A DNA stretch of 57,091 nt, taken from positions 1 to 57,091 of the forward strand of contig JAFXIL010000048.1 in assembly GCA_017563185.1 (NCBI GenBank). The letters are read 5' to 3'. A program made the translations under genes and the position numbers. The DNA is from Kiritimatiellia bacterium. Lineage in GTDB: Bacteria > Verrucomicrobiota > Kiritimatiellia > RFP12 > UBA1067. This document shows, piece by piece, positions 4,079 to 47,367 of the stretch; position 1 is the first letter of the stretch; each line of letters begins with the position of its first letter. The notes below the pieces were generated by a model that saw only the letters and a program-made list of their open reading frames with translations, searched no databases and was not told the origin of the DNA.

Positions 4079-4083
4079 GTTGA

Positions 4084-5403
4084 TCACGCCTTTGAGTTGC
4101 GGGAGGTGAAGTCGTATGCTCCGCGTACGGTCATGGATTCATCGTCCGCCGTCACGTATGCCACAGAATATGCGTTGCCGCCTGGAGCGACGTTCAGCAC
4201 CACGTGGCCTGCGCCGAAAGCCTCGGGGGCGATGTCGCGGACGAAATCCTTTCCCGCGTCCTCGAAACGGCGCTCTGGCGAGAACACGCCCGCCGCCACA
4301 AGGCGCGGACCAGAATAGGCAGCGCGGTCGGAAAGGCGGGTGAGAGTGTCGGCCGTGATGTGAAGCTGGTCCCACATGCAGGCCGTCCATACGCGCGCCT
4401 GAAGCGCCGCCACTAGCTTGGCGGGCATGGAGTGGTGGCCGTGGTGGTTGACCTTCGCCACGTCCACTGGATCTAGCTCCTTCGCGAGCTCGGCCTCGAT
4501 GTTGCGCCGAGAGCCATCTGGGAGCCTCGGACTGTCAGAGAAGTCGCCGGCCGAGTAGAAGCGGAACGGACCATACTGCACGAGAAGCCCGAGACACATG
4601 CCGTTCTCGTTGAGCCGCTTCGCGTTGTGGAGCTCCGCGTAGAGGTCGCGCACCTTGCCGTCGCGGCACAGTATCTTGCCGTTGCCGGTGATGTTGGTGA
4701 TGGAGAAGGACGGATAGTCGGCGGCGTTCTTCAGCATCGCCACCTGGTTCTTGGCGCCCACCTTGAACTGAGCCATCTTCAGTCCGTCGCGCTGCGTTAG
4801 ATAGTCATAGACCTTGCGCATCAGAGAGTAGCAGACGGTGTCGCATTTTTCGTCCGGAATGGGATCGTTGAAGTTCGGCCACCCGCGGTCGAACGCCGTA
4901 CCGAACTTGAGAGTGTCCGCCGCCTGCATGAAGCCGCTCACGAAGATGTTCGTGCCGTTCCATTCGCGCGTGCCGGCGCCCCATGTCTCGCCGCCGCCAT
5001 GGTCGGAGTGGTGGTGAGAGAGCATCATGTAGTCAACGGCGGTCTTCGCGGGATTGACACGCGTCACGTAGCGAGCGATCCATTCGCCCGCGTTCTTTCT
5101 GCCGTTTGGGAGTATCCACACCGCCTTCTTGCCGCGTGTCCAGGCAGCGTGGTCGCCGCAGTCGAGGAGCATCGTGGTGCCGTCTGGCAGAATCCAGAAC
5201 ATGCTCTCCGCCACGCCCGTATAGATGAAATGCACCTGAAACTCGCCTGGCTTCCACGAAGGAAGCTTTTTGCCGGCCAGAGGGTGGTTCTTACCGCTCC
5301 AGGACTGTCCGGAAGATGCCGTGATGGGCGTTGAGGCACTAGCGCCCACGGCGCCGAAGAGCGGCGCAAGCGCCGCCGTTTTTATGAAGTTCCTTCTGTT
5401 CAT
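4084..5403 (-). CDS. Exported ComEC-type metallo-beta-lactamase-fold hydrolase
   Basis: 439 residues with a Tat-type signal (NRRNFIKTAALAP). The metal-binding HxHxDH is H130-H-H132-S-D134-H135 (SHHHSDHGGG). A later SAGDFSD and KVNHHGHHS match the extra motifs of the extracellular beta-lactamase domain of ComEC-like proteins. The reaction is probably hydrolysis of a phosphodiester or similar ester outside the cytoplasm; the substrate is not determinable. ATG 5403 is supported by AAGGGAG just upstream and by the signal peptide. A strong promoter lies at 5426-5454. The stop is 5 bp before the DUF5703 start. Confidence 0.8.
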   Translation of the reverse strand: MNRRNFIKTAALAPLFGAVGASASTPITASSGQSWSGKNHPLAGKKLPSWKPGEFQVHFIYTGVAESMFWILPDGTTMLLDCGDHAAWTRGKKAVWILPNGRKNAGEWIARYVTRVNPAKTAVDYMMLSHHHSDHGGGETWGAGTREWNGTNIFVSGFMQAADTLKFGTAFDRGWPNFNDPIPDEKCDTVCYSLMRKVYDYLTQRDGLKMAQFKVGAKNQVAMLKNAADYPSFSITNITGNGKILCRDGKVRDLYAELHNAKRLNENGMCLGLLVQYGPFRFYSAGDFSDSPRLPDGSRRNIEAELAKELDPVDVAKVNHHGHHSMPAKLVAALQARVWTACMWDQLHITADTLTRLSDRAAYSGPRLVAAGVFSPERRFEDAGKDFVRDIAPEAFGAGHVVLNVAPGGNAYSVAYVTADDESMTVRGAYDFTSRNSKA

Positions 5404-5425
5404 TTCACTCCCTTTTCGGGCACGT

Positions 5426-5454
5426 ATTCTATCATGTTTCCCGCACACTGACAA
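5426..5454 (-). promoter_or_regulatory. Sigma70-type promoter, extended -10
   Basis: On the minus strand TTGTCA (5454-5449), a 17-bp spacer and TAGAAT (5431-5426) with TG one base upstream of the -10. It drives the metallo-hydrolase at 5403 and probably the DUF5703 and metallophosphoesterase genes downstream. Confidence 0.7.
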
Positions 5455-5499
5455 GGGAGTCCAATTCAAAGCGGCGTGGAATCAAGCGGAAGGATTCCG

Positions 5500-6495
5500 T
5501 CACCCTAGCACCATTTCAAGGCCGTCGTATGCGGCGCGGAGCATGGGCGGAAGCTCCTTGTTGATCTTCTCCGCCGGCCAGCCGCGGTACTTGATGGCGA
5601 GGTGCGTGATGTAGGCGTGCTGGCCGGGCGGCGGCGTGAAACGACCGTTCTTCGCAAGCATGTTGACGAAGCGCGACACCGTCTGCACGCTCGAATGGAC
5701 GAACAGGCGGAAGTCCTCGTCGTTGTCGCCGTCCGTAGCCTCCATGATGAATGCGGTGAGCGCCTGAGGCCTGCGCACGTATGCGCCCGAGGCCGCAAAC
5801 CGGGAAAAGTTGCCGTCCTTCACATGCGGGTCGATGCCCATCATCCGGGCGGCGTCGCCCATGAGCCCGCCAGTGTCGGTTGCGTACAGGAGGCGCGAGC
5901 CGCCCTTCTCCACAAGGTAAACGGATGTGCGTTCAAGAACGCCGTTCGTGACGCGCGAAGTGCTGTGGTTCGCCGGCACGCCCGTGAAGCGCATGCCACA
6001 CTCGACAACAGGCCTGCCGAACGGAAGGCCGATGACCTCGGGCGCCGGCAGCCCCAGCGCCGCAGCGGCCTTGCCCACCTCCTCGCGCGCGGCGTCGGCC
6101 CACGTCTCCTGCACGTACATGCGCTTTACGCCCGACTTCACCGCCGCCCTGGGGTTGTAGTGGTCGCCGTGGGAATGCGTCTGGAAGAGAACCTCGGGAC
6201 GGCAGTTCTTCGGCAGCATGTCGAACGCGCACATCGTGAAGTCGATGAGCACCTTGTTCTCCAGCAGCACGCTCGACTGGCGGCGCGCGTGGGGGTTCTT
6301 GGCCATTTCCGGCTTCCAGCCGGCGGCGCCGCTGCCGAGGAAGCGCACGCGGATTCCCGACTCTGCGGAAATCGCCTGCTCAGGCGCGGATTGCGCAGGC
6401 TGCGTTCCATTGGGCTTTGCCGTAGTACAGCCTGCCACGGCCGCGAGCGCGGTGGACGAAACGAGGAAATTTCTGCGGGAGATGTTGTTTGTCAT
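5500..6495 (-). CDS. Exported metallo-beta-lactamase-fold hydrolase, probable lipoprotein
   Basis: 331 residues. The N-terminus has SRRNFLVSS followed by a hydrophobic stretch ending in the lipobox VAGC (C23), so it may be a Tat-exported lipoprotein. The metal motif is THSHGDH (H107, H109, D111, H112), with a later ATDTGG aspartate, as in the RNase Z/PhnP-like branch of the fold. Its substrate is unknown. There is no Shine-Dalgarno sequence before ATG 6495; instead an extended -10 ends 6 nt upstream, suggesting a leaderless message. Confidence 0.78.
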   Translation of the reverse strand: MTNNISRRNFLVSSTALAAVAGCTTAKPNGTQPAQSAPEQAISAESGIRVRFLGSGAAGWKPEMAKNPHARRQSSVLLENKVLIDFTMCAFDMLPKNCRPEVLFQTHSHGDHYNPRAAVKSGVKRMYVQETWADAAREEVGKAAAALGLPAPEVIGLPFGRPVVECGMRFTGVPANHSTSRVTNGVLERTSVYLVEKGGSRLLYATDTGGLMGDAARMMGIDPHVKDGNFSRFAASGAYVRRPQALTAFIMEATDGDNDEDFRLFVHSSVQTVSRFVNMLAKNGRFTPPPGQHAYITHLAIKYRGWPAEKINKELPPMLRAAYDGLEMVLG

Positions 6496-6501
6496 GCCGC
6501 A

Positions 6502-6510
6502 AGTATAGCA
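6502..6510 (-). promoter_or_regulatory. Extended -10 promoter, probably leaderless
   Basis: TGCTATACT on the minus strand (TATACT at 6507-6502). The start codon follows after only 6 nt, so transcription would begin at or next to the ATG. A TTCCAC at the -35 distance is a poor match. The same geometry is seen at 25631 and 20300. Confidence 0.5.
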
Positions 6511-6539
6511 CAACCGCACGGAGAGTGGAAGCGCAAATC

Positions 6540-8084
6540 CTAGGCCTTGACCTCGAAGCGATGGGCGTTCGGACGGATCTCGACGCGCGAGAGCCAATCG
6601 GCATTGCCTGTGCCGTTAGCAAATGTCATCTTCGCGGGATTCCAGTCGAAGCCCGTGTCGTGCACGTAGCTCATGTGGACCAGCTGGCAGAGCACGGAAG
6701 TCCAGGGCCCCACGTGGTGGTTGGAGATCGTGTCAGTGCGGGCCGTGACGCACTCCACGAAGTTCTGCACCTGGTTGCGCGATGCGTAGAGCCGCTTCTT
6801 GAAGTCCTTCACCTTGAAGCCGAGGCGCTCCTCGGCCAACTTGATCGCGTGCATCGAACTCATGCCGAATTCATTCGTCGCCGTGTCGATCTCCCTCTTG
6901 ACGCCGTCGACGCGCTCGTCGTAGCGGCCATTGTAGTAGGCGATCTTCTTGAGGCCGTCGAACGTGCCGCGGCTCAGGCCTTCGCGCACCTTGCGGTCCG
7001 TGCCGAATCGGCCGTCGCCCTCCCAGATCGCGAAGCGGCCGCGGTCGACGCAGATGACGCCGCGATCGCCGAAGAACACCGTTCCCCAGCGCGTGCCGCC
7101 AACATGCAGAAGCTCAAGTCCGTCGGCATAGACGAGACGCGCCCCGTTCTGGCGGCGGAAGCCGCGGTCCCACGCCCAGTGGCGCCCCTCGGTGCTTGCG
7201 ACTACCTTGACCGGCCCAGTGCCGTCCTTGCCCATGCCCCACTGCGTGATGTCCATGTGGTGGGCGCCCCAGTCGCCGCATCCTCCGCTGCCGAAGAAGT
7301 CGTCTTCGCGCCAGAAGCCCGGGAAGAAGTTGTGGACTCCGCGCGGTGCGAGCTCGTCGGAATACGGCACGTCCGGCGCAGGGCCGATCCACATCCTGAA
7401 ATCGCAGTCGGGGTTCGGCGCGCCCTCGCTCTCCCACTTCTTGAAGTCCTTGTAGGGACGGCGCGGACACGCCGGGCCGCCGAACTGGTTCTCCACGTAC
7501 TTGACCTTGCCTATCACGCCGTTCTGCACCATCTCGCAGGCCGCGCGGAACTCGTAGCCCGAACGCTGCATCGCGCCGGTCTGCAGGATGCGGCCGGTGC
7601 GCTCTGCCACCTCCACGATCACGCGCGCCTCGTCCACGCTGTAGGTGAGCGGCTTCTCGCAATAGACGTCCTTGCCGTGCTTCATCGCCTCCACCACCAT
7701 GTAGGCGTGCCAATGGTCGGGCGTGGCTACGCAAACCATGTCGATCGAGGGGTCTTGGATGATCTTGCGGAAGTCGCTCTCTGCCTTGCAGACGTCGGCA
7801 GGCACGCCGAGGTCCTTGTGGTCCCTGTAATACTCGCGCACTCGCCTGAGCGCGTCCTCGCGGCGGATGCGGTCGCAGTCGCAAACGCGCGTGACGACGC
7901 ACTTCTGGCCAAGAAACTGGTTTAGGAGGCCCCGTCCCTGAAGACCTAGGCCGATCATTGCGACTGTCGGCAGTTCGTTGAGCGCACGCCTGCGCGCCGG
8001 CGCGATCGCCGCGAAGAGACGCGGCGACGAAACGGCTGCCGCGCCTAGAAGACCTCTTTGAAGAAACTCTCTGCGATTTGTCAT
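6540..8084 (-). CDS. Exported Gfo/Idh/MocA-family oxidoreductase
   Basis: 514 residues. A Tat-type signal (NRREFLQRGLLGAAAV) is followed by an NAD(P)-binding Rossmann motif GLGLQG (residues 45-50) and the family hallmark CEKPLTYSVDEA near residue 150. Members oxidise or isomerise sugars and cyclitols, and exported versions are common in planctomycete-like bacteria; periplasmic members of this family act as glycosidases or nucleotide-sugar enzymes with tightly bound NAD. ATG 8084 has an AAGGAA ribosome site. The gene has its own near-perfect promoter and ends 44 bp before the next start. Confidence 0.87.
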   Translation of the reverse strand: MTNRREFLQRGLLGAAAVSSPRLFAAIAPARRRALNELPTVAMIGLGLQGRGLLNQFLGQKCVVTRVCDCDRIRREDALRRVREYYRDHKDLGVPADVCKAESDFRKIIQDPSIDMVCVATPDHWHAYMVVEAMKHGKDVYCEKPLTYSVDEARVIVEVAERTGRILQTGAMQRSGYEFRAACEMVQNGVIGKVKYVENQFGGPACPRRPYKDFKKWESEGAPNPDCDFRMWIGPAPDVPYSDELAPRGVHNFFPGFWREDDFFGSGGCGDWGAHHMDITQWGMGKDGTGPVKVVASTEGRHWAWDRGFRRQNGARLVYADGLELLHVGGTRWGTVFFGDRGVICVDRGRFAIWEGDGRFGTDRKVREGLSRGTFDGLKKIAYYNGRYDERVDGVKREIDTATNEFGMSSMHAIKLAEERLGFKVKDFKKRLYASRNQVQNFVECVTARTDTISNHHVGPWTSVLCQLVHMSYVHDTGFDWNPAKMTFANGTGNADWLSRVEIRPNAHRFEVKA

Positions 8085-8114
8085 GAACTCATTCCTTGTG
8101 GCATTTTTCAGATG

Positions 8115-8144
8115 ATTATACCACGCGAAGATATCGACTGTCAA
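8115..8144 (-). promoter_or_regulatory. Consensus sigma70 promoter for the Gfo/Idh gene
   Basis: Minus-strand TTGACA (8144-8139), an 18-bp spacer and TATAAT (8120-8115), with TGG immediately before the -10. Both hexamers are perfect. The leader to ATG 8084 is about 25 nt. Confidence 0.85.
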
Positions 8145-8250
8145 TTATGCGCCGCAATTTTAACGGTGAGGCACATCTGCATTTTTTCAACCGAGCGTAT
8201 TTGGATTTGGAAACAACAGAAACAACCTGCAAAGACAACCTTTTCTTCTC

Positions 8251-8298
8251 GCCGCGCAACTGCGCGGCTTTCTTGAATCGGCGGGCAGTTGCCCGCCG
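8251..8298. repeat. Pair of perfect palindromes
   Basis: GCCGCGCA-AC-TGCGCGGC (8251-8268) and CGGCGGGCA-GT-TGCCCGCCG (8279-8298) are two perfect short-loop hairpins about 10 bp apart. They belong to the same style of GC-rich, 2-nt-loop palindrome found elsewhere in the window. Confidence 0.6.
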
Positions 8299-8695
8299 TA
8301 AAAGAAAGCTGTTTCAGATAAGTTGTTTCCTGTCATCAGAAAGCATGGCGGTGAATTATGGAGATGCGAGCCTGTGTGGACTGTCCCTCCTTGGCCAGAT
8401 AACGCGGCTTTGCCAATGTCTCATCGTCTCACGTCTCGCGTCCGCGCGCACACAACCATCTCGCCAGCGACGGTCATGTGCGCGGCACGTCACCTATCGC
8501 AAGTGAAGTAGCGGGCATGAGGCATAAGATTACGGTGCGGAACGTGTTTGTGGGAATTGCGGCTCGCCCAGAGGGCTCGCCCCACCACGGCTCGGCGGGA
8601 CGCCTCGCCCCACCGAGCGGCCGCAACAAGCGCGGCCTGAGCTACAGTATCTGGTGGATAACGGCAACGGCTATGTACGCGCAAATGTCACGCGC

Positions 8696-8765
8696 ATAAC
8701 ATTATGGGGGACAGTCCCCCACTCCCAGAAATAACATTATGGGGGACAGTCCCCCACTCCCAGAA
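8696..8765. repeat. Perfect 35-bp tandem duplication containing hairpins
   Basis: Two identical 35-bp units (8696-8730 and 8731-8765) follow each other without a gap. Each contains TGGGGGA-CAG-TCCCCCA, a perfect 7-bp stem. They lie 56 bp downstream of the GH89 stop codon and may form the end of that transcript. Confidence 0.75.
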
Positions 8766-8821
8766 AGACTCAATAACTCCAAGACTCCGAAACTCCAAGC
8801 AGCGAAAGCAACCGCCGTTCG

Positions 8822-11461
8822 TCATTTGCGTTTGCTGATATCGTCCCAGTCGGCGACAAGTTCGTCAACCAGCTTCTCGCAGGTCCAGCCGGCTGCTGGC
8901 GGCGCGATCGGCAGACGCTCCTCCACCCACTTGTTCTGCCAAGCGCGGATTTCCTTGGCCTTACCCGCGCGCGCCAGACGCAGACGCGGCAGGTAGTAGT
9001 TCGCCACGAGTCCGCTCCACACGCGCGCCGCATAGTCGCCCAGCCCCGGCGCCCACACCGTGATGATGCGCCGCGCGTCCGTCTCGTAGTAGTCGGCCAG
9101 CTTCTCGTCGCCGTCCGCGCACGAACGCGCCTTGGCGATCCAGTTGCGCAGGTCGTGCGTGGGATGGCCGGCCAGCACGGCGTCGACGCCCTCAAGCAGA
9201 CGATCCCCGCGCGCGACGAGCTCCGGCTTGCCCGACGCGAGCAGCAACTCGGCAATTTTGCCGGCCGCATGTGCGGACTGCACCGCGAAGTCGCGGCGGA
9301 AGATCGGATTGTCGCCAACCTTCGCGGCAAGGCCGCGCATCGTCTTCATCGCGGCAACTGCCTCCGCCGCGCCGCGGGAATTGCCTCTCACTTTCGCCGG
9401 GCGGTTCTGCCACGAGAACTTCTCGGGCCCGAAATCGGCGTTCCATTCTCCATAGACGCCCGCGAGCATCTGCTGCCAGTATTTGCGCACCTCCGCGCCT
9501 TCTACGCCCCAGCGTCCGAGCGAATAGCGCTCCAGCCAGTCGACGATTTCAACCGGACGGTCACGCCACCCCGCCGCGCTGAGCACCTCGAACACGTCGT
9601 CCAGTACCTCGATGGCCTCAGTCATCGTACCGAACGCGTAGAGCGCGCCCCGGTTGCCGCTTGCGATCGCCGAGAGGTGCCCGTTCGCGTTGAACGGCAG
9701 GTCGCCGTTCGGAAGCGTGTTGCCGCCGTAGTCGGGAATCGGGCTCCACGCCCAGCGCCGGCCGTTGTACGACTGGTATTTGTCCCAGTTCCATAGGAAC
9801 CGCCGATAACGATGTCTGTTGTAGCATTCGACGCAGTTGTCCACGAGCAGCATTTTGTCCGCCGGCACGGCGGAAAGGAAAGCGTCGGCTCGCTCCTTCG
9901 TCCACACGTTCGGCGCATTGATGAAGATCCATCCCTGGAGCGTCCACACGGCGTCGGGATTCGCGGCCTTCAGCGCGCCGTAGATGTTGCGTCCGCACGT
10001 CTCCAGCCCCTTGCGCGTCGCCTCGTCGCCGTCCTTGAGCCACGGCATCGAGCGCGACATCTCGATGAAGCTGTCGCAGAGATAGTATTTCCCCTTGCCG
10101 AACGCCTTCTCCCACTCGCGCACGATCTCCGCGCCGATCTGCACGAAGAGCGGATCGTCGGGATAGAGGAACCACGAATGGTAGCGTCCCACCCACGTGA
10201 GCCGCGCCATCTTTGCATCCGGCTGGACGCGCCTGAGGCCGGCCGGAACCGCGCCTGCGAACCCTTGCGCCATCACGTCCATGCCTAGCGAGCGCAGGCG
10301 TTTGTATATTGCATGCTGGAGCGGCACGGACCGCTTCCGCCACGCCGCCGGCAAGTGGCTGATCGCGTTATCCACGCAGCCCATGCGCGAGAACGCGAGA
10401 TACGCCGGCCCCGCGAACGACTCCTCGATCTCCGCGTCGGTCAGCCCGTGCTTCTTCCACACCCGTTCGAGAATCGCCTCGAACGCGGTGACGGCGTTCG
10501 GGAGATCGTAACCGTGTAGCGCCATCCAGTCGATCTCGCGCATCCAGCGCGCCTCGTCCCAGAACGCGGTGGTATAGGACGCCGTGCAGGGCTGCATGTA
10601 GAGGTGGCGGCGGAACGGCGAGACGACGCGCAGGTCGTCGTTCGGCGTTCCTTCCGCCCACGCCTTCGCGTCGAAGCGGTTGCCGCTCCACGAGCAGACG
10701 CCCGCGCCCTTGCGCGTGACGTCCGTATAGAACGCCTTCGCGAGCGTCGCGCCGTTGGAGGCGCGGATGCGCCTTCCGCGTTCCAGCACCTCGAAGACGG
10801 GCCGCCCCGCGTCGAACGTGATGATTTCGAGCGTGAGTTCCCGCGCCACATCTTCGCCCGCGAAACGCGCGATCACGCCACGTGCGGCCTCGATCTGACC
10901 CTCGGCGGCCAGAGGGCTGGCCGCCCTACCATGCACCGGTAGGGCGGTCGCCCCGCGACCGCCGCAATTGCCGCCCACGTCAATGTCGCGCGGCACGAGC
11001 GTGAGGTCGGCAATTCCGTATCCGGCGGACTTGGGGCTGGTCACGAGCGGATGGGCTGTTCCGTTGAGCGACCCATCCGCGTTGACGAACTTCCAGCCGA
11101 GACCATGGTCCTTCGTCAGCACGTAGCGGGCTGCAACTGCGCGGCCCAGCACGCCGTCAGCGCCGTCGAAGAGTTCCAGCACGATGCACTTGAGATGGTA
11201 GGAATCCATCATCTGCATCTCTACGCGCAGACGCGCCGGCCGGGCAGCCTCCTTCGGCAGCATGGTCTTGTTGTACCCAACCATGTTCCGCGGACGCATG
11301 TGCGTGCCGATGGCGTTGCCGCTGATTTCGTTCGCCTGCACGTCGGCAAGCGTCCGGCCTTTCAGCACGAGCGCCGGCGCGTTAATCGGCACAACGCCTG
11401 CAAGAGCCGCCGCCGCAAGTGCAGCACATGCGACGCTGAGAAGAAGTCTTGGCATTTTCAT
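8822..11461 (-). CDS. Exported GH89 alpha-N-acetylglucosaminidase
   Basis: 879 residues with a signal peptide (residues 1-22). The central region follows the human NAGLU family closely: DWMALHGYDLPNAV, FAGPAYLAFSRMG and LQGWIFINAPNVW. Candidate catalytic glutamates are E467 (YLCDSFIEM) and E615 (GTMTEAIE), aligned by context with the two human NAGLU catalytic glutamates. The enzyme removes terminal alpha-1,4-linked or alpha-linked GlcNAc, as in heparan sulfate or mucin glycans. Residues 1-230 form an N-terminal beta-rich region; residues about 163-190 are encoded by an inserted palindromic element. The start ATG overlaps the upstream stop (ATGA), so translation is probably coupled to the metallophosphoesterase. 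Confidence 0.88.
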   Translation of the reverse strand: MKMPRLLLSVACAALAAAALAGVVPINAPALVLKGRTLADVQANEISGNAIGTHMRPRNMVGYNKTMLPKEAARPARLRVEMQMMDSYHLKCIVLELFDGADGVLGRAVAARYVLTKDHGLGWKFVNADGSLNGTAHPLVTSPKSAGYGIADLTLVPRDIDVGGNCGGRGATALPVHGRAASPLAAEGQIEAARGVIARFAGEDVARELTLEIITFDAGRPVFEVLERGRRIRASNGATLAKAFYTDVTRKGAGVCSWSGNRFDAKAWAEGTPNDDLRVVSPFRRHLYMQPCTASYTTAFWDEARWMREIDWMALHGYDLPNAVTAFEAILERVWKKHGLTDAEIEESFAGPAYLAFSRMGCVDNAISHLPAAWRKRSVPLQHAIYKRLRSLGMDVMAQGFAGAVPAGLRRVQPDAKMARLTWVGRYHSWFLYPDDPLFVQIGAEIVREWEKAFGKGKYYLCDSFIEMSRSMPWLKDGDEATRKGLETCGRNIYGALKAANPDAVWTLQGWIFINAPNVWTKERADAFLSAVPADKMLLVDNCVECYNRHRYRRFLWNWDKYQSYNGRRWAWSPIPDYGGNTLPNGDLPFNANGHLSAIASGNRGALYAFGTMTEAIEVLDDVFEVLSAAGWRDRPVEIVDWLERYSLGRWGVEGAEVRKYWQQMLAGVYGEWNADFGPEKFSWQNRPAKVRGNSRGAAEAVAAMKTMRGLAAKVGDNPIFRRDFAVQSAHAAGKIAELLLASGKPELVARGDRLLEGVDAVLAGHPTHDLRNWIAKARSCADGDEKLADYYETDARRIITVWAPGLGDYAARVWSGLVANYYLPRLRLARAGKAKEIRAWQNKWVEERLPIAPPAAGWTCEKLVDELVADWDDISKRK
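10904..10966. repeat. Composite double-palindrome element inside the GH89 gene
   Basis: Hairpin one (8-bp stem, 10904-10925), CCCTACC (10924-10930), GGTAGGG (10938-10944) and hairpin two (9-bp stem, 10943-10963). This is the same layout as at 3294-3355. The right arm and following GCCGCAAT also match the element at 24741-24772. It adds a Gly/Ala/Arg/Pro-rich loop to the protein without a frameshift. Confidence 0.78.
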
Positions 11462-40471: not shown

Positions 40472-41866
40472 TCAAGTCGGCGGAACTGACTGCGAAGATC
40501 TTGGAAGAGTGTAAAACCTTCTAGCCCGGCGAAAGCCTTTCGACTCTGCCTCTGCGACGGTAACGCAAAAACAATCCCCTTCAGACGGAACGATCTTCGT
40601 GACGTCATACTGCTCGTCAAACGGCAAATGGAATATCCCGCTTGACTTGTTGCACTTGATGCGTGGAAACGATGCGACATCTTCGGGGAGACCTATGTTT
40701 TCATGGTATTGTACTCCAAGCGCAACGGCAAAATGACGCGCCATGTCCGACAGCCTAGTAGAGGTGATCAATACCGGCTTCAATCGGGCAGGCAAACGGC
40801 CGTTAGTCAACTCTATTCCATGTGCAAACGCATATTCAACGGTCGTGCCGAACAACTGCATGACATGTTTCTCGTGGATCAGTTTCTCCTTCGACCAATA
40901 TTTGCACTGGACAATGTGCGTCTCAGGACTGGACGACAGCGGATCGCTCCGGCATATCAGGTCGCGGCCCATGTCTGCGAGCTTCTTTTCCATGCCGATA
41001 TGCTCGACTTGGAAATCTTTACGCCTATAGCAGTGCCCTATATACAATTCGTAGTCACGTCCGATCTGCCACTTCGACTTGTTATGCGAGCCGATGTAGC
41101 GATCAAGCGCAAGCTGGCTTTTCTCCGTAGATGACAGTCTTGCGTATTCTTCATCGGAGAGCCAGTCCTTTTCGGTAGTCTTTTCAGGAACCGGAGATGT
41201 TGCGGCATTGGGTACTTCATCGTCTGCGTAGTCCAGAAGTCCAGGGAAAAGAGATTCGTAATAAAGGCATTTGTACATTGCCAAATACATCTCGCGCCTT
41301 CTTTCACGATTAGCCGAACGCAGGCTGGAAATATAATCGCGCACCGTCGAATAGCACGACCAATTCAATTCCGTATCATAGCGCAAATACTCATAATCGG
41401 TTATGGCCCGCGCAATCCAAGCCGGAGACGCACCTCTGATTGACATGATGAAGTCACGTACTTCTTTACGTTCGGTCTCAACTTTCTGCTCTCTATTCTT
41501 AATCTGTAATTCCTTATCTTTCACGGCGTCAGCAACTTTCTTATTGAACTTTTGCGAGACCTCGTTTTCGATTGCCGCCGCACGTAATGACCACTTGTAA
41601 TCTGCCTCTTTTATTGATTGTTCAGCCGTCTTCATCAAAGCTTCGGCCTTGCATTTCTTTTCCTCTATTTTAATCTGTTCTTTGCGCCGAACCCCTGGAA
41701 CACTAAAAAGGATCTTAATAGAAAACAAGAAAACGACAACAGATATCAAAAGTAGAATTGCCGCCAATCCGTCAATTCCATTGCCGGAATCCCTTGCAGC
41801 AAAGAACAGCGGCATGTATGCCGCTGCACAGGACAGGCGGAAAACACCATTTCTTCGCTCTGTCAT
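40472..41866 (-). CDS. Membrane-anchored Mrr-like restriction endonuclease-fold protein
   Basis: 464 residues. A transmembrane segment (about 33-54) is followed by a long coiled coil (about 62-138), a linker, and a PD-(D/E)xK domain of the Mrr type: E273 (GRDYELYIG), D302 (GRDLICRS) and Q320-C-K322 (IVQCKYW). Such proteins cut DNA, often modified or foreign. ATG 41866 is at the centre of a palindromic operator. The protein is leftward and divergent from the repressor, as is common for lysogenic-conversion or superinfection-exclusion genes, which is the likely role here. A host gene beside the prophage cannot be excluded. Confidence 0.75.
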   Translation of the reverse strand: MTERRNGVFRLSCAAAYMPLFFAARDSGNGIDGLAAILLLISVVVFLFSIKILFSVPGVRRKEQIKIEEKKCKAEALMKTAEQSIKEADYKWSLRAAAIENEVSQKFNKKVADAVKDKELQIKNREQKVETERKEVRDFIMSIRGASPAWIARAITDYEYLRYDTELNWSCYSTVRDYISSLRSANRERRREMYLAMYKCLYYESLFPGLLDYADDEVPNAATSPVPEKTTEKDWLSDEEYARLSSTEKSQLALDRYIGSHNKSKWQIGRDYELYIGHCYRRKDFQVEHIGMEKKLADMGRDLICRSDPLSSSPETHIVQCKYWSKEKLIHEKHVMQLFGTTVEYAFAHGIELTNGRLPARLKPVLITSTRLSDMARHFAVALGVQYHENIGLPEDVASFPRIKCNKSSGIFHLPFDEQYDVTKIVPSEGDCFCVTVAEAESKGFRRARRFYTLPRSSQSVPPT

Positions 41867-41873
41867 ACAGAGG
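41857..41873. promoter_or_regulatory. Palindromic operator, leftward copy
   Basis: On the minus strand, CCTCTGTATGACAGAGC contains a CTCTGT/ACAGAG dyad with a 3-nt centre. That centre is the start codon of the Mrr-like gene. A 17-bp identical copy in opposite orientation lies at 42328-42344, on the other side of the repressor gene. Confidence 0.65.
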
Positions 41874-41881
41874 CGACAAAT

Positions 41882-41910
41882 AGTTTACAACAAATGGTTA
41901 TGAAGGTCAA
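41882..41910 (-). promoter_or_regulatory. Leftward promoter for the Mrr-like gene
   Basis: TTGACC (41910-41905), 17 bp, TAAACT (41887-41882) on the minus strand. The message would start about 9 nt before ATG 41866 and has no Shine-Dalgarno. The operator at 41857-41873 covers the start. Confidence 0.6.
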
Positions 41911-41916
41911 TACCAA

Positions 41917-42291
41917 ATGCGAAAAATTCTAGAAAAAGTTAAATCGTGTCAAAACGGCATGAGCGTGTCGAGTTTTGCACGTTTTCTTGGATTGAATCAA
42001 CAGACTGTCTACTATTACCTCAACGGAGACAGAAAAATGTCTCTAGATTTTGTCTATACCATTTGCGAGAAATGTGGCGTTTCCGCCGATTGGCTTCTCG
42101 GCTTCTCCGACGAGCGCGCGCCCGGTGGTGCCTCCATGGCGCAGCCGAACGTCGATCCGCGCATTGCCGAACTGGAAGCGGAGAATGCCGCCCTGCGAGG
42201 CGAGGTAAAAGGCCTTAAATATGCGCTGGAAGCGGCCATGAGGGGGGCAAAAGCTGTCCCGGATTCCGTGCCCCATGGGCGCACTGCATGA
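41917..42291 (+). CDS. XRE-family HTH repressor-like protein
   Basis: 124 residues. The HTH lies at about 15-45 (SVSSFARFLGLNQQTVYYYLNGDRKM), followed by the common LDFVYTICEKCGVSADWLLG tail of phage repressors. Residues about 80-107 form a short coiled coil for dimerisation. Two identical palindromic operators flank the gene. It is probably the lysogeny repressor, although it lacks a peptidase domain. AAGG lies 11 nt before ATG 41917, a weak site. Confidence 0.82.
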   Translation: MRKILEKVKSCQNGMSVSSFARFLGLNQQTVYYYLNGDRKMSLDFVYTICEKCGVSADWLLGFSDERAPGGASMAQPNVDPRIAELEAENAALRGEVKGLKYALEAAMRGAKAVPDSVPHGRTA

Positions 42292-42327
42292 TTCGTCGCA
42301 TGGTAGGATCGCCATGAAAAAGCCTGT

Positions 42328-42344
42328 CCTCTGTATGACAGAGC
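42328..42344. promoter_or_regulatory. Palindromic operator, rightward copy
   Basis: CCTCTGTATGACAGAGC, identical to the inverted copy at 41857-41873, lies 41 nt upstream of the first rightward phage gene. Binding here would shut off the whole rightward operon. Confidence 0.65.
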
Positions 42345-42384
42345 AAGCACATGATAAGCAAAACATGCAGAAAGGTCAAGAGAA

Positions 42385-42588
42385 ATGAGCGAGAAGCTGA
42401 ATGTGATAAGGCGCAAGGAACCGTTTGCGATGATTACGCTGCGGGTGTTTGCGGGCGACAAGAAGAGGATCGAGCAGGTGGCCACGGCGAACGAGGCTAC
42501 CGTGACGGACGTAATCATCAGCGCGCTCGTGCAGACGGGCGTGATCCCGGAACGGGCGGGCGCGGCAGCGGCGAACCCCGCGCCGTGA
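42385..42588 (+). CDS. Small ribbon-helix-helix DNA-binding protein
   Basis: 67 residues. AMITLRVFAGDKKRIEQVATANEATVTDVIISAL fits the RHH (CopG/Arc) pattern. First gene of the rightward phage operon, so it may act as an early regulator. AGGTCAAGAG precedes ATG 42385. Confidence 0.7.
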   Translation: MSEKLNVIRRKEPFAMITLRVFAGDKKRIEQVATANEATVTDVIISALVQTGVIPERAGAAAANPAP

Positions 42589-42618: not shown

Positions 42619-42849
42619 ATGAACGAGATTGACTGGTACAAGATGACCGAACGGCCGGATGAGCGCGAGCTTCGCCGGAAGATTCGCCGCGTGGCGATCG
42701 TGGAATGGATCGGGCTTGCCGTGCTGATTCCGCTTTCCATCTTTCTCTTCTGGCTGTTTCTCGCCGCCACGCCGACGCAGTCGAGCGCGATCAACGACCT
42801 GGACACGGCGGCTGAAGCCGCCCGCTCCAATACGGAGGACGCCCCGTGA
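42619..42849 (+). CDS. Small single-pass membrane protein
   Basis: 76 residues: a charged N-terminus, one transmembrane segment (IVEWIGLAVLIPLSIFLFW) and a short hydrophilic tail. Function unknown. AGGAGGGAAAG before ATG 42619 is a strong site. The C-terminal codons contain a GGCGGCT-GA-AGCCGCC palindrome. It overlaps the next gene by 4 nt. Confidence 0.6.
   Translation: MNEIDWYKMTERPDERELRRKIRRVAIVEWIGLAVLIPLSIFLFWLFLAATPTQSSAINDLDTAAEAARSNTEDAP
42807..42822. repeat. Short palindrome inside a phage coding frame
   Basis: GGCGGCT, two-nt loop, AGCCGCC. The same GGCT-GA-AGCC core recurs at 50387-50402, and similar 2-nt-loop palindromes occur at 43575-43586 and in the chromosomal part at 8251-8298. 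Confidence 0.5.
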
Positions 42850-43256
42850 CGACTAGCGAAGTCAAAACCGCGCTGGGCAAGGCGGCGAGGAGGTGCTGGC
42901 CGAACGTGACGAGGGCCAGCGACCTCCCCTTCCCGGAATACTGGAAAGGCGCGACGGAATGGCTGACGTTCCACGCGCCGCATGTCGGCGACGCGCTGAT
43001 GCGGAAGCTGATCGACGGTTTCGCGGTGTCGGCGAAGGAGGCGGAGGAACGGGGCGAGGCGCCGGTTCCTCCGAAGGTGCCGGAAAAGGTGAAGGAGATC
43101 TGGGCCATTGTGGCCGAACACAGTTCGGCCATCAGGGCTGACGAGGCCAAGACGGAAGAGAAGCGGGCGGCATGGGAACACGCGGCGGAGCGGGCGGCGG
43201 AGGTGAGGAGCCGATTCGCGCCAAGGGCGAACGCCGTGCAGGGGAGGCTGCTATGA
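42846..43256 (+). CDS. Phage protein of unknown function
   Basis: 136 residues beginning with GTG at 42846, which overlaps the previous stop (GTGA). Helix-rich, with a coiled-coil-like C-terminal half (EVKEIWAIVAEHSSAIRADEAKTEE-type composition) and a basic tail. No motif recognised. It overlaps the next start by 4 nt, so it is translationally coupled on both sides. Confidence 0.6.
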   Translation: MTTSEVKTALGKAARRCWPNVTRASDLPFPEYWKGATEWLTFHAPHVGDALMRKLIDGFAVSAKEAEERGEAPVPPKVPEKVKEIWAIVAEHSSAIRADEAKTEEKRAAWEHAAERAAEVRSRFAPRANAVQGRLL

Positions 43257-43645
43257 GCGAGGCGGCGAGCGAGATCTTCGGCGCGCGGGAGAGGCCTTAC
43301 GACTTCCGCTGGGGCACGCCGCAGCAGGTGAGCGACCAGTTCGGGATCTGCGTACAGGTGCTGAAGGCGGCATGGAAGCGCGGCTGGGTGCGTGCGCGGC
43401 AAGGCAACTGGGTGAGCGACGAGAAGCGGACGCAGACGGTGTACTGCTTCGAGGACATCCACGGCTGGCTGGAGCGCGTCGCGCACAAGGTAAGTGAGGC
43501 ATACGCGGAAAAGTGGTGGACTGACGAGACGATTGCCACCCTGGAGGAGAAGACGCCGGACGGGCCGTATTTGCGGGCTAAAGCCCACCGGCCCAATGTC
43601 CGGAAGGACGGCTTCGCGCCGTTGCCGAGGAATGGGATGCTTTGA
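43253..43645 (+). CDS. Phage protein with a helix-turn-helix/excisionase-like domain
   Basis: 130 residues. TPQQVSDQFGICVQVLKAAW followed by KRGWVRARQGNWVSDEKRTQ and YCFEDIHGWLE resembles a MerR/excisionase-type winged helix. ATG 43253 overlaps the upstream stop. The C-terminal coding region contains a nested palindrome (43561-43596). A DNA-binding role is probable; the target is unknown. Confidence 0.5.
   Translation: MSEAASEIFGARERPYDFRWGTPQQVSDQFGICVQVLKAAWKRGWVRARQGNWVSDEKRTQTVYCFEDIHGWLERVAHKVSEAYAEKWWTDETIATLEEKTPDGPYLRAKAHRPNVRKDGFAPLPRNGML
43561..43596. repeat. Nested palindrome in a phage coding frame
   Basis: An outer GGGCCG/CGGCCC dyad surrounds an inner GGGCT-AA-AGCCC hairpin. 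It lies in frame near the end of the gene at 43253-43645 and resembles the inserted elements elsewhere. Confidence 0.45.
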
Positions 43646-43658
43646 GGAAGGAACGATC

Positions 43659-43832
43659 ATGGACGCGGTGATACATGTCAAGGTGCCGGAGGGATGGTAC
43701 GCGGGCTTGCGCGCCCTTGCGGACCAATCCGAAGGAACGATCAGCCAGCAGACGCGGCTTGCGATCCGCGAGCGGCTGGAGCGCAAAGGGCTTCTGGGCA
43801 ATGCCCAAGGACAAACCAAAACGGAGAACTAA
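43659..43832 (+). CDS. Small ribbon-helix-helix protein
   Basis: 57 residues. VIHVKVPEGWYAGLRALAD then SEGTISQQTRLAIRERLERKG is an RHH fold. GAGGAAGGAAC before ATG 43659 sets the start. Its TAA is immediately followed by the ATG of the beta clamp gene, so it may regulate or be cotranslated with the clamp. Confidence 0.68.
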   Translation: MDAVIHVKVPEGWYAGLRALADQSEGTISQQTRLAIRERLERKGLLGNAQGQTKTEN

Positions 43833-44930
43833 ATGAAAACTACGATAACGAAGGCCGCCCTTGCGGAAGCGGCCCAAGCAGTCAGGGGGCTCGTCTCAAA
43901 AGACGGCCTGAGCGCGTTCAGCAGGGTGCGGCTGGACGCAGTAGGCCCGAACGTGTCGCTCACGGGATCGAACGGCGACATTCAGATTCTTTGCCGTTTC
44001 AAGGGCGAGACGGAGAGGGACGGTGCCGTGACGCTGCCGGGCATGCTCTTCTGGCGGTTCGTCGGAGCGATGCCGGAGGGCAAGGTGGAGATCGAACGCG
44101 AACCCCTGAAAACTCTGGCGAGGCTTTCAGGCAGCGAAGGCGTGAAGTTCAGGCTTGTCGCCGGGAATCCTGAAGACCTGCCGCCAATGGCGCCGCCGAA
44201 AGACGAGGCGGAGGTGCATGTGCCGGAACTTATGCTGCGGGAAATGCTGAGAAAGACGATGTTCGCGGCGAGCACGGACACGACCAGGGCGGCGCTGTGC
44301 GGCGTGAACGTCCACTGGAAAGGAGACCTTCTGGAAATGACGGCGACAGACGGGCGGCGGCTTGCGCACGTGGAGCATGAGGTGGACCGAGGCGAGGGCT
44401 TCGACTTCACGCTTCCGCTGAGGGCCGTTCAGGTGCTGTGGGGGCTTCTGGAGGCGGACAGCGACGAGACGCTGACCGTCAAGTCGGACGGGCGATCGGT
44501 GCAGATCGTCGGCGACAGCTGCCTCTTCACGTCGAAAGTGTCGGACACCGTCTATCCCGGCTGGCGAAAGGTCGTGCCGGAGAAATGCGCGCACGAGGCG
44601 AGGATCGGGCGAACGAGGTTCCTTGACGCGCTGGATCGCGCGGCGCTGGCCGCCGGCGAAGATTGCTCGGTGAAGATGACGCTGAAGAACGGATGCATAC
44701 TGTTCGACGCGCGCAGCGACCTGTCGGCGGCAAGTACCGGGATGGCGGCATGCGAGATGGACGACGGCCTGAAAGAGGAGTTCCACTTCAACCCGAGGCT
44801 GCTGAAGGACGCGCTGGAGGCGCTCGACGAGGACGAGTTCACTCTCCACTTCGACAACGGAGCGAGTCCGGTGAAGCTGACATGCTCGATTCCATGGCTG
44901 GCCGTGGTGATGCCGTTGCAAAAGAAATAA
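43833..44930 (+). CDS. dnaN: Phage-encoded DNA polymerase III beta subunit (sliding clamp)
   Basis: 365 residues, the size of bacterial DnaN. Three clamp domains of about 120 residues are recognisable by the repeated beta-alpha pattern; the diagnostic ATDGRRLAHVE sits in domain 2, and VRLVVPSR-like signatures are replaced by a divergent C-terminus (IPWLAVVMPLQKK). It would load on DNA as a processivity ring. No polymerase is visible in this window, so the phage probably redirects host Pol III. The start directly follows the previous stop. Confidence 0.85.
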   Translation: MKTTITKAALAEAAQAVRGLVSKDGLSAFSRVRLDAVGPNVSLTGSNGDIQILCRFKGETERDGAVTLPGMLFWRFVGAMPEGKVEIEREPLKTLARLSGSEGVKFRLVAGNPEDLPPMAPPKDEAEVHVPELMLREMLRKTMFAASTDTTRAALCGVNVHWKGDLLEMTATDGRRLAHVEHEVDRGEGFDFTLPLRAVQVLWGLLEADSDETLTVKSDGRSVQIVGDSCLFTSKVSDTVYPGWRKVVPEKCAHEARIGRTRFLDALDRAALAAGEDCSVKMTLKNGCILFDARSDLSAASTGMAACEMDDGLKEEFHFNPRLLKDALEALDEDEFTLHFDNGASPVKLTCSIPWLAVVMPLQKK

Positions 44931-44943
44931 GGAGGGCTGAGGG

Positions 44944-45612
44944 ATGGCGCTTTCAATGCTGAAGGACGGGAAAATCACTCCGCTTGAGGAGGAACGCGAC
45001 GATGTGTCGCCGCACACGGAACCAGAGGGCGAGGGACAGCCCCAGGATGCGGCGGACGCGGATATACTCGAAGAGGCCGAGGGCTTTTCCGGGAAGGAGA
45101 AGGCCGCGAACAAGCCAGGAACGGAAAAGCGCGACTGGGTGGAGGAGGCCTGGAAGTGCTTCATCAAGGACGCGGGCGACATCGACCCGACGGATCCCGT
45201 GAAGGCGGTGGAGGCCTACTTCCAGAAGAACGCCACCGACGAGCTGAAGGCCAGGTGCAAGGCCGAAGGCAAGGACGCCAGGGGCTGCTGGAGGTTCATT
45301 GAGGCCGTTGCGAGGAAGGCGTTGCACGGCTCGAGCGGCCACGTCGACCCGGGCGTGGTTTACGCGATCGCGATGCACTGGTTCGAGGACGTGCCGGCGG
45401 ACTGGGACAAGCCCGCGCCAAGCCCGAAAGCCAAGACCGCGAAACCCGCCAAGAGCGCGAAGCCGAAGAAGCCAGCCGAGACGCCTTCCGAGATCAAGAA
45501 GGAAAAGGCGAAGGCCAAGGCCAAGGCGGCCAAGACGAAGAAACCGAAACAGCAGCAGGGCTTCTTCTTCGAGATGCTGGAGACGCCGTTTGAAGGAGGG
45601 CAGGATAAATGA
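44944..45612 (+). CDS. PcfK-like protein
   Basis: 222 residues. The acidic N-terminus is followed by a PcfK-like domain (about 75-155): VEAYFQKNATDELKARCK, then GCWRFIEAVARKAL, then VVYAIAMHWFEDV, as in the PcfK family first seen on conjugative plasmids. The C-terminal 70 residues are Lys/Pro/Ala-rich, as in a nucleic-acid-binding tail. PcfK and PcfJ genes usually travel together; the PcfJ partner is at 47380. Its biochemical role is not known. It overlaps the next gene by 4 nt. Confidence 0.7.
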   Translation: MALSMLKDGKITPLEEERDDVSPHTEPEGEGQPQDAADADILEEAEGFSGKEKAANKPGTEKRDWVEEAWKCFIKDAGDIDPTDPVKAVEAYFQKNATDELKARCKAEGKDARGCWRFIEAVARKALHGSSGHVDPGVVYAIAMHWFEDVPADWDKPAPSPKAKTAKPAKSAKPKKPAETPSEIKKEKAKAKAKAAKTKKPKQQQGFFFEMLETPFEGGQDK

Positions 45613-45833
45613 ACAAGCAAGTCGAGATCGAATTGGCAAGAAAATTCTTTGACTGTATTTTCGCCGAGGTAGAAAATGGTAATGACGTGATCTATGAGTT
45701 TATCGACCCAGAATGTGAACATGAGAACCTCTGCGACAAGTTGAACAATTATACAGTCAAAGAGGTTCTTGCGCTTGGGTTTAGACAGAAATACGGCACG
45801 GACTGGCACGTAGAAAGCGAGGTGAAGGAATGA
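45609..45833 (+). CDS. Small phage protein of unknown function
   Basis: 74 residues, acidic, with helical N-terminal half (ELARKFFDCIFAEVENGND). No motif recognised. Codon use is less GC-rich than its neighbours, suggesting separate origin. Joined to both neighbours by ATGA overlaps. Confidence 0.6.
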   Translation: MNKQVEIELARKFFDCIFAEVENGNDVIYEFIDPECEHENLCDKLNNYTVKEVLALGFRQKYGTDWHVESEVKE

Positions 45834-46921
45834 GCGACACGCATGGAGTGAACGGCGAAGGATGGATCGGATTCGATCTTGACGGAACCTTGGCGAAATA
45901 CGACGGCTGGCAGGGCATCGACCACATTGGCGAGCCAATAGAGGAGATTGTCAGGCTTGCGAAGAAATTCCACGCCGAGGGGAAACGCGTCAAGATACTA
46001 ACGGCCAGAGTCGCACCGCGACTTTGCGGCGAGACGCATGCCACCGGATGCAAGTGCGGTCATTGCGAGGAGGAGGCAAGCCGCCCGCCTGTCATACAGG
46101 AGCAGTACCTTGTCGAACTTGACGACCACGGCTTCAGCGTCAAGAGGACGGCTTCGAGCTACATCCGAGAATGGTGCGGCAAGCACCTTGGCTTTGTGCC
46201 TGAGATCGTCCACGAGAAGGATCATCTGATGCTGGAGCTTTACGACGACCGCGTGAAGCAGGTCGTGCCGAACAAGGGCGTCCTTGTCGAGGACTTGGCA
46301 AACTACTACAAGTCGCTTGTGGAATGCCACCGACACGGCAGTTCCATCTTCACGGATGGATGGCAGCACTACACGGACGGCGAGATAAAGGATCAGGCGC
46401 ACATGTTCCTGGTCAAAGCCGAATTGCCGGAGGACAAGATCGACTTCCTCGTGAACGCATTGGGGTTTATGCGGATGCCGGCGTCGATCCACCACCACCT
46501 GAACTATCCGGGCGGCCTTGCGCGGCACAGCGTGAACGTGACGCACTGGATGCTGCGGCTGACGGATCCGTTCGGATGCAAGTGGATGAAGCCGAGGAGC
46601 CCGTACAGGATCGGGATGCTCCACGACCTCGTGAAGTGCTACTGCTACAGGCCCGACGAACAGGAGCCGGGGAAGTTCCGCTGGATGCCGCCGCCGTTCG
46701 AGGGGCACGGCACGACGAGCGTGATTACCGCCGTGACGGAGCTGGGAATCGACCTGACGACGCAGGAGGCGCTTTGCATCGCCTGGCACATGGGCGCGTT
46801 CGGGCTTGGCAAGGACGAGCTGAAGCAGTACGACGCCGTGATCGAACTTCATCCGAGGGAAATCCTGCTTACGCACACGGCTGACATGCTGGCCGCAAAG
46901 GTGACGGAGGAAGGAAAATGA
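45830..46921 (+). CDS. HAD phosphatase fused to an HD-domain phosphohydrolase
   Basis: 363 residues. Residues about 10-150 are a HAD domain: FDLDGT (D16, D18), TAR (T58), and YDDR (D139, D140), with a Cys/His-rich insert C66-x3-H70-x3-C74-x-C76-x2-C79 that could bind zinc. Residues about 215-355 are an HD domain: H233, H265-D266 (LHDLVK), H293, H320 and D352 (HTADML). Both metal-dependent active sites look intact. HAD parts alone of this type are widespread in phages; the fused HD partner suggests a two-step nucleotide hydrolysis. Overlaps both neighbours by 4 nt. Confidence 0.85.
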   Translation: MSDTHGVNGEGWIGFDLDGTLAKYDGWQGIDHIGEPIEEIVRLAKKFHAEGKRVKILTARVAPRLCGETHATGCKCGHCEEEASRPPVIQEQYLVELDDHGFSVKRTASSYIREWCGKHLGFVPEIVHEKDHLMLELYDDRVKQVVPNKGVLVEDLANYYKSLVECHRHGSSIFTDGWQHYTDGEIKDQAHMFLVKAELPEDKIDFLVNALGFMRMPASIHHHLNYPGGLARHSVNVTHWMLRLTDPFGCKWMKPRSPYRIGMLHDLVKCYCYRPDEQEPGKFRWMPPPFEGHGTTSVITAVTELGIDLTTQEALCIAWHMGAFGLGKDELKQYDAVIELHPREILLTHTADMLAAKVTEEGK

Positions 46922-47367
46922 ACGACTCGCACACGCAGAGAATGATGCCGAGGACGGAGATCAGAAGGTTGAAGCGCAGCGAGTGTGCGGTACTGCACCT
47001 CGGGTTAAAGAGCCACTGGTACAGGATGATCGACTCGGGCGTGAAGAAGGTCGAGTTCCGCGAGGCGACGCCGTACTGGGATGTGCGCGTGGCCAACTGG
47101 ATTCGGCGTTGGAAGCGGGCTACGAGTGATGAACCTGGGAATATCCCCGTGCTGGAGTTTCAGAACGGCTACGGTCGCTTCTCTCCGCGCATGGCGTTTA
47201 TCGCCGGCGGCGCTGTCTATGACGTGCTTGACGCCAAGACGCCAGTTCGGCACAAGGAGCTGGGCGAGTTCCCCAAGAAGCGGTACGTGTTCTTCATCGG
47301 CGAGCGCGTGGTACTTCAAAACGAGCAGGTTCCGGAGAAGCCGGCACATGCTCTTTATCAGCGATGA
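46918..47367 (+). CDS. ASCH/PUA-like domain protein
   Basis: 149 residues. AVLHLGLKSHWYRMIDSG and VKKVEFREATPYWDVRVANW follow the ASCH domain consensus, a PUA-like fold that binds or cleaves RNA or modified nucleotides. The rest is a beta-rich tail. ATG 46918 overlaps the previous stop. RNA or nucleotide processing during infection is a reasonable inference. Confidence 0.7.
   Translation: MNDSHTQRMMPRTEIRRLKRSECAVLHLGLKSHWYRMIDSGVKKVEFREATPYWDVRVANWIRRWKRATSDEPGNIPVLEFQNGYGRFSPRMAFIAGGAVYDVLDAKTPVRHKELGEFPKKRYVFFIGERVVLQNEQVPEKPAHALYQR

Follow-up and report, generated by a model that had tools for sequence, protein, structure and literature searches.

Inverted copies of a 17-bp dyad around a prophage repressor gene may mark the ends of an invertible immunity-control segment

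INTRODUCTION

Why would a prophage carry the same short dyad on both sides of its repressor gene, in opposite orientation? The question is raised by a 57,091 bp stretch of DNA from a Kiritimatiellia bacterium (GenBank assembly GCA_017563185.1, contig JAFXIL010000048.1, positions 1 to 57,091), which is referred to here as the window. A first-pass annotation interpreted the two copies as operators of the XRE-type protein encoded between them, such that one repressor would silence transcription in both directions and, on one side, operator and translation start would be the same sequence. Comparison with related loci points to other roles, including that of the ends of a DNA segment that may invert.

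RESULTS AND DISCUSSION

A dyad pair in a prophage immunity region

The presence of the 17-bp dyad on both sides of the XRE gene, in opposite orientation, was confirmed by direct reading. The left dyad (GCTCTGTCATACAGAGG, positions 41857–41873, − strand) reads CCTCTGTATGACAGAGC when followed leftward, and the right dyad (CCTCTGTATGACAGAGC, positions 42328–42344, + strand) is its exact reverse complement. Each comprises arms CTCTGT/ACAGAG around a 3-nt asymmetric centre. No third copy was found in the window with up to 3 mismatches allowed, and a search of the genome (3,207,387 bp; one mismatch allowed) gave no perfect CTCTGT-N3-ACAGAG site beyond this pair. A 17-bp inverted repeat within 600 bp occurred in 0 of 60 Markov-shuffled windows, versus one observed. 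Short palindromes are common, and 69 stretches of viral contigs match the dyad pattern (see below), as would be expected of a chance repeat without function. Nonetheless, an exact 17-bp inverted copy within 500 bp, which three other phages retain at the corresponding promoter position, makes chance a negligible explanation.

The earlier assignment of the XRE gene to a prophage immunity region is supported. Phage early and packaging genes (sliding clamp, PcfK- and PcfJ-like, Toprim, terminase) lie to the right of the switch, and host-looking sugar-hydrolase genes lie to the left, beyond about 40.2 kb. Between the dyads, the repressor gene (41917–42291, + strand) encodes a 124-aa protein with an HTH_3 domain and a predicted C-terminal coiled coil; no Pfam peptidase domain was detected in it. 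The first early gene (42385–42588, + strand), whose ATG follows the end of the right dyad by 40 nt, encodes a 67-aa ribbon-helix-helix-like (RHH) protein that we propose as the Cro equivalent. The window protein itself has no Pfam match. Its homologues in two related phages, L020 and G007, have RHH-type matches below threshold, and its more distant counterpart in a third (L108) matches PF01402 above the cut-off. The early operon follows (42619–47367, + strand) and includes a sliding clamp (43833–44930), a PcfK-like protein (44944–45612), an HAD/HD-like protein (45830–46921), and a conserved 149-aa protein (46918–47367; 61–70% identity among these phages, no Pfam match), all on the + strand.

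To the left, the cargo gene (40472–41866, − strand) encodes a predicted N-terminal membrane segment and an Mrr-like nuclease domain (PF13156, 18 bits, below the cut-off of 22). As annotated previously, its ATG (41866–41864) is the centre of the left dyad. This predicted start lacks a recognizable Shine-Dalgarno sequence, and a second in-frame ATG lies downstream. The proposed identity of operator and start codon did not extend to relatives: the dyad centre is AAG or ACG in three of them, so the overlap is private to the window phage. At the right dyad, the ATG in the centre opens a 17-codon frame read from the sequence (42335–42388, + strand; MTEQAHDKQNMQKGQEK), whose TGA stop shares bases with the RHH start codon (ATGA), and which is not conserved in L020. 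Peptides from both dyad ATGs start with MTE.

Both recognizable promoters read leftward

Two sigma-70-like promoters were recognized near the dyads, and both read leftward. P_L (TTGACC-17-TAAACT, 41882–41910, − strand) reads out of the segment bounded by the dyads, and its −10 box ends 9 nt from the left dyad, which lies at the predicted P_L start site, as it does in L020, G007, and L108. P_R (TTGACC-17-TATCAT, 42351–42379, − strand) reads into the segment; its −10 box ends 7 nt from the right dyad, and its score of 16.0 exceeds the 95% point of shuffled sequences (13.5). P_L is conserved in nearly all relatives. These promoters are matches to a consensus that may not be that of the host group. 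No rightward promoter above shuffles precedes the XRE gene or the early operon in the window, L020, or G007, where the early genes are nonetheless intact. The idea of one repressor silencing both directions is thus not supported, as neither dyad has a recognizable rightward promoter.

The same arrangement bears on whether the dyads might act as RNA, that is, as hairpins formed close to where outward transcripts begin, similar to nut/boxB antitermination sites. In each of the four CTCTGT pairs, the centre does read in the same sense when viewed along the outward direction, and the left dyad is followed by a terminator-like hairpin in both the window and L020. However, no outward promoter precedes the right dyads, the right copy in L108 lies upstream of the nearest promoter and hence outside that transcript, and the hairpin energies of the right sites do not exceed those of shuffled sequences. 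Overall, we give this explanation only a very slight probability. The window hairpin (41806–41827, − strand) is located in the P_L transcript, 30 nt downstream of the left dyad, and sits inside the Mrr-like frame, which suggests either attenuation of the cargo gene or a true start further downstream. The similar hairpin in L020 (1925–1945, − strand) is likewise in the P_L transcript.

Relatives carrying an inverted pair

Three other phages (L020, G007, and L108) carry the same inverted dyad pair around an XRE gene. A search with the XRE protein recovered L020 and L021 (IMG/VR, 39% identical), which are one phage type from two samples, together with about 30 loci in related genomes. In L020, CTCTGTAAGACAG lies upstream of the XRE gene, and its inverted copy precedes the first gene of the rightward operon by 56 nt, measured start to start; the G007 genome has the same layout (20-bp identity). 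Scanning all viral contigs for the dyad pattern gave 69 stretches, most of them isolated chance matches, and two copies in one contig only (IMGVR_UViG_3300028832_000220; L108/L128). These copies flank an XRE gene, with an RHH gene nearby. Because the scan used the dyad pattern alone and no protein, this locus constitutes independent confirmation. Beside its right dyad, a HEPN-domain gene (L128 2157–2531, − strand) lies behind a promoter of consensus sequence (TTGACA-18-TATAAT) and is a candidate cargo gene. The same record holds a single 2600-aa open reading frame (2705–10507, − strand), apparently a polyvalent phage protein.

Further searches added no such loci. The Mrr-like, clamp, or RHH protein alone recovered no relatives from viral contigs, and the XRE protein gave only partial matches, to its C-terminal half, in genome contigs. 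A second scan of viral contigs with the pattern of the P_L end yielded no new XRE-linked locus, the 149-aa early protein used as a marker led to no further dyad pair, and the phage GenBank collection contained distant HTH matches only and no RHH match. Single dyads in other genomes (e.g., L047 and L049) were read as chance. A conserved frame common to L188 and L108 was considered as evidence of the early operon and dropped, as an overlapping antisense frame was more gene-like.

Of 25 loci with longer flanks, 5 (0.2 expected) have a stretch of 13 nt or more of the control region repeated in the sequence 0.3–4 kb beyond the XRE start, in each case inverted; none has a direct repeat (0.4 expected). 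The five loci are the window, L020/L021, G007, L108/L128, and G118, of which four were chosen for the dyad and G118 independently of it. In G118, a 22-bp inverted repeat (CGCTCTGTTATAATGAGCGAAG; L188 7838–7859 and 10157–10178) surrounds another XRE gene. This repeat is unrelated in sequence to the CTCTGT dyad, and both copies have an identical 9-nt asymmetric centre. Centres therefore match within each pair and differ between pairs (ATG/ATG, AAG/AAG, AAG/AAG, ACG/ACG, and the 9-nt centre of G118), and in L020 they are identical although the arms have diverged. Such identity is expected of recombination sites, whereas a palindromic operator needs none. Alternatively, a shared regulator could keep the copies of a pair alike.

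Two regulators and their predicted sites

The control region of the wider family is uniform, with P_R directed right into the XRE gene, P_L directed left, their −10 boxes facing, and a dyad between them. At 15 loci, the gene on the left encodes a small HTH protein, mostly of about 60 aa, and Mantel tests on these loci separated the two regulators. The central dyad followed the small opposing HTH protein (r = 0.82, P = 0.0002) and not the XRE protein (r = −0.06), whereas the P_L spacer followed the XRE protein (r = 0.59, P = 0.0002) and not significantly the small HTH (r = 0.12). The correlation between dyad and HTH could owe something to linkage with the left gene, but such linkage cannot explain the missing correlation with the XRE gene, which is equally close. 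For example, L062, L069, and L079 have a common central dyad (GTCACGGCGTGAC) and nearly the same small HTH, with three different XRE proteins, and L071 and L076 likewise have a common central dyad and different XRE proteins. In the window, the corresponding spacer (41883–41904) is the predicted XRE operator region. The small HTH family opposite XRE genes includes L062, L069, L079, L051, L052, L073, and other family loci. Six loci combine the recognition helix SREHLS(R/K)VLHG with half-sites TCAC-N3-GTGA, a possible specificity code.

These results bear directly on the first-pass interpretation of both dyads as XRE operators. In its favor, the dyads lie on both sides of the XRE gene, and 15-bp dyads suit lambdoid-type HTH dimers. 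However, the XRE recognition helices of the four CTCTGT phages all differ (LNQQTVYYYLNG, WPYQTWGKYESG, IPLNTYTNWLLY, and LNQAAVDRYVKG) while the half-sites are common to them, and the dyad is absent from L076, L006, L051, L052, and L054, whose XRE helices are most like that of the window and whose central dyads are different ones. Absence of the dyad beside a repressor of the same kind is what the first-pass annotation itself had named as grounds for rejection. As the half-sites are common to four helices and the family dyad follows the small HTH rather than the XRE protein, the dyad is very unlikely to be an XRE operator, and two-directional silencing through such operators is accordingly improbable.

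A different protein may bind the dyad here. The small HTH was rejected as the partner in the CTCTGT phages because the window, L020, and G007 stretches do not contain it; it was also not found in the part of L108 examined. Instead, an RHH gene lies behind one dyad copy in all four. Members of the RHH family were detected in 2 of 388 genomes of the phylum, the same two that have the dyad pair; at comparable strength the family was otherwise absent (162 genomes of the order and 388 of the phylum), bar one weak second match in G007. The RHH search model was built from three of the four CTCTGT phages, and L108 alone is an independent test of the link between dyad and RHH gene. On this pattern of co-occurrence, the RHH protein is a reasonable candidate for the dyad partner.

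It may also be that this is all the dyads do. They could serve as a fixed pair of operators for a Cro-like partner. The RHH protein is the likeliest such partner; it would shut P_L at the left dyad and control its own operon at the right dyad, and the present layout would have arisen by one old rearrangement with no switching. This explanation is favored by the position of the dyad, which is that of the operator predicted for the opposing small HTH in relatives, by the co-occurrence with the RHH family in place of the absent small HTH, and by the blind scan, which recovered L108 with both XRE and RHH genes. It leaves unexplained, however, the lack of promoters before the early operon and the XRE gene in three phages with intact early genes, and the matching centres within pairs. 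Moreover, the second dyad of L108 adjoins the promoter of the HEPN cargo rather than the RHH operon. A further difficulty, the exact restoration of the canonical promoter spacing, is described below. Taken together, we consider fixed operators possible but rather doubtful.

A split switch and evidence for rearrangement

In 21 relatives, the −10 boxes of P_R and P_L face each other 27–33 nt apart (mean 29.3) around one dyad. In the window, L020, and G007, by contrast, P_L stands at the left dyad with no P_R there, and a leftward promoter lies 7, 7, and 8 nt, respectively, outside the right dyad. In L020 this promoter scored 15.0 against a shuffle point of 13.5, and in G007 it scored 11.5, which is not significant. 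When the dyad-bounded segment is inverted on paper, the distance between the −10 boxes becomes 31 nt in the window, 30 nt in L020, and 31 nt in G007. L108 has 30 nt as sequenced, uninverted, with P_R (TTGCCC-17-TATCAT), the dyad, and P_L (TTGACA-18-TATAAT) together and the early operon on the P_L side. This split of P_R and P_L, restored to exactly the canonical spacing, is what fixed operators leave without explanation.

The flanking sequences point the same way. The early flank of L108 by its dyad (GTTTGTAGTATCATGTGTTTA) closely matches the right outer flank of the window (GTTTTGCTTATCATGTGCTTG), with z = 5.6 in anchored alignment versus about 1 for the left outer flank. The P_L ends of the four phages match one another (z = 3.6–9.3 for L108 versus the other three), and the cargo flanks of L108 and the others gave no significant alignment. 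A set of syntenic early genes (RHH, three others, and the 149-aa gene) is found on the P_L side in L108; in G007 the set occupies the far side. A single inversion accounts for both the two promoterless transcription units and the two misplaced promoters, and a rearrangement of the segment is well supported by these comparisons. The inverted cases all resemble integrated prophages (host-like genes beside the window phage, a tRNA-like end in L020, and a 109 kb contig for G007). The uninverted L108 may be a free phage or a fragment, although one case proves nothing.

Proposed inversion mechanism

We propose that an immunity-control segment, comprising the XRE gene and P_L and ending in a dyad on each side, has been inverted by recombination at these dyads, probably by reversible site-specific inversion, and we regard the evidence for and against this reading as evenly balanced. 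In the uninverted form (L108 and the layout of the 21 relatives), P_R and P_L would face each other across one dyad, P_R would produce the XRE repressor, P_L would produce the early lytic operon, and the XRE protein would repress P_L by binding its spacer. In the inverted form (window, L020, and G007), P_L would read across the left dyad into the cargo gene (the Mrr-like nuclease in the window, HicBA in L020 and G007), and P_R would read antisense into the segment. The XRE gene and the early operon would then be without a promoter, leaving the lytic genes off and the repressor not needed. The Cro-like partner, here probably the RHH protein, may in addition use the dyad between the promoters as its operator. 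Neither the Mrr-like frame nor its start codon would be disrupted by inversion, as the two 17-bp copies do not differ. The site specificity and reversibility of the inversion, the recombinase, the activity of the promoters, and all protein binding are features that we infer.

Several observations count against inversion as a switch. Each phage was seen in one orientation (L020 and L021 are alike), and opposite orientations were found only between different phages. There is a single uninverted CTCTGT phage, L108, and one old inversion could account for all three inverted forms. The genomes and records yielded no serine recombinase (PF00239). Tyrosine recombinases (PF00589) exist in the G000, G007, L020, and L021 records, but none is tied to the dyads; none was found in the L108 record or in the prophage part of the window. 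In addition, the repeats are short (13–22 bp) and P_R of G007 is weak.

More broadly, we tentatively suggest a temperate phage family that might choose between inducible lysogeny and a locked dormancy by reversible inversion of its immunity segment, although we would sooner bet against this scenario than for it. One orientation would be an ordinary face-to-face switch under repressor control. In the locked form, the lytic operon would be disconnected and its promoter would drive defense or addiction cargo (Mrr-like nuclease, HicBA). If reversible inversion does occur, lysogeny would be set by the orientation of DNA as well as by the level of repressor, the lytic operon could stay off without any repressor, the same strong promoter could be lent to host-protecting cargo, and orientation could be read directly from sequencing reads. 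Even with a single old inversion, the loci provide a parts list for a switch family (XRE, small HTH or RHH partner, and paired promoters), and covariation separates the sites of the two regulators whichever the history of inversion. Neither an invertible phage immunity region nor a switch family with these parts was found in the open-access literature searched.

Comparison with known systems

Several known systems share parts of this arrangement. The lambda nut/boxB sites are transcribed hairpins on both sides, and the right dyad lacks this feature, having no outward promoter and unremarkable energies. As in lambda CI/Cro, the repressor gene adjoins its control sites and two regulators oppose each other. 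Here, however, the sigma-70-like promoters face instead of diverging, the repressor has no recognized peptidase domain, and two sites flank the window repressor gene as inverted copies. Phage P22 encodes a small RHH regulator, Arc, in its immunity region. The small RHH-like protein in the immunity/early region of the window is similar in this respect, although its family match is weak and no antirepressor partner was identified.

The fimS switch of Escherichia coli is a segment with an outward promoter and short inverted repeats with identical centres, one orientation of which joins the promoter to the target operon. The window segment likewise has an outward promoter and inverted-repeat ends with identical centres. 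Unlike fimS, it contains an immunity repressor, no cognate recombinase was found beside it, and its orientations differ between phages only.

P2-like phages and coliphage 186 have face-to-face promoters, with repressor operators over the lytic promoter and separate sites for Cox or Apl; in P2-like phages the promoters are 40–60 bp apart, and Apl binds direct repeats (PMC7498355). The 21 relatives and L108 resemble the P2/186 switch in their face-to-face promoters, with −10 boxes in this family only about 29 nt apart around one palindrome. In the window, unlike P2/186, the palindrome is duplicated and inverted, P_R and P_L stand at different dyads, and the promoters face each other only after inversion on paper. 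The allocation of sites may nonetheless be similar: the P_L spacer, which tracks the XRE protein in 15 relatives, is the predicted counterpart of the repressor operator over the lytic promoter, and the central dyad, which tracks the small HTH in relatives, would correspond to the separate operator of the opposing regulator.
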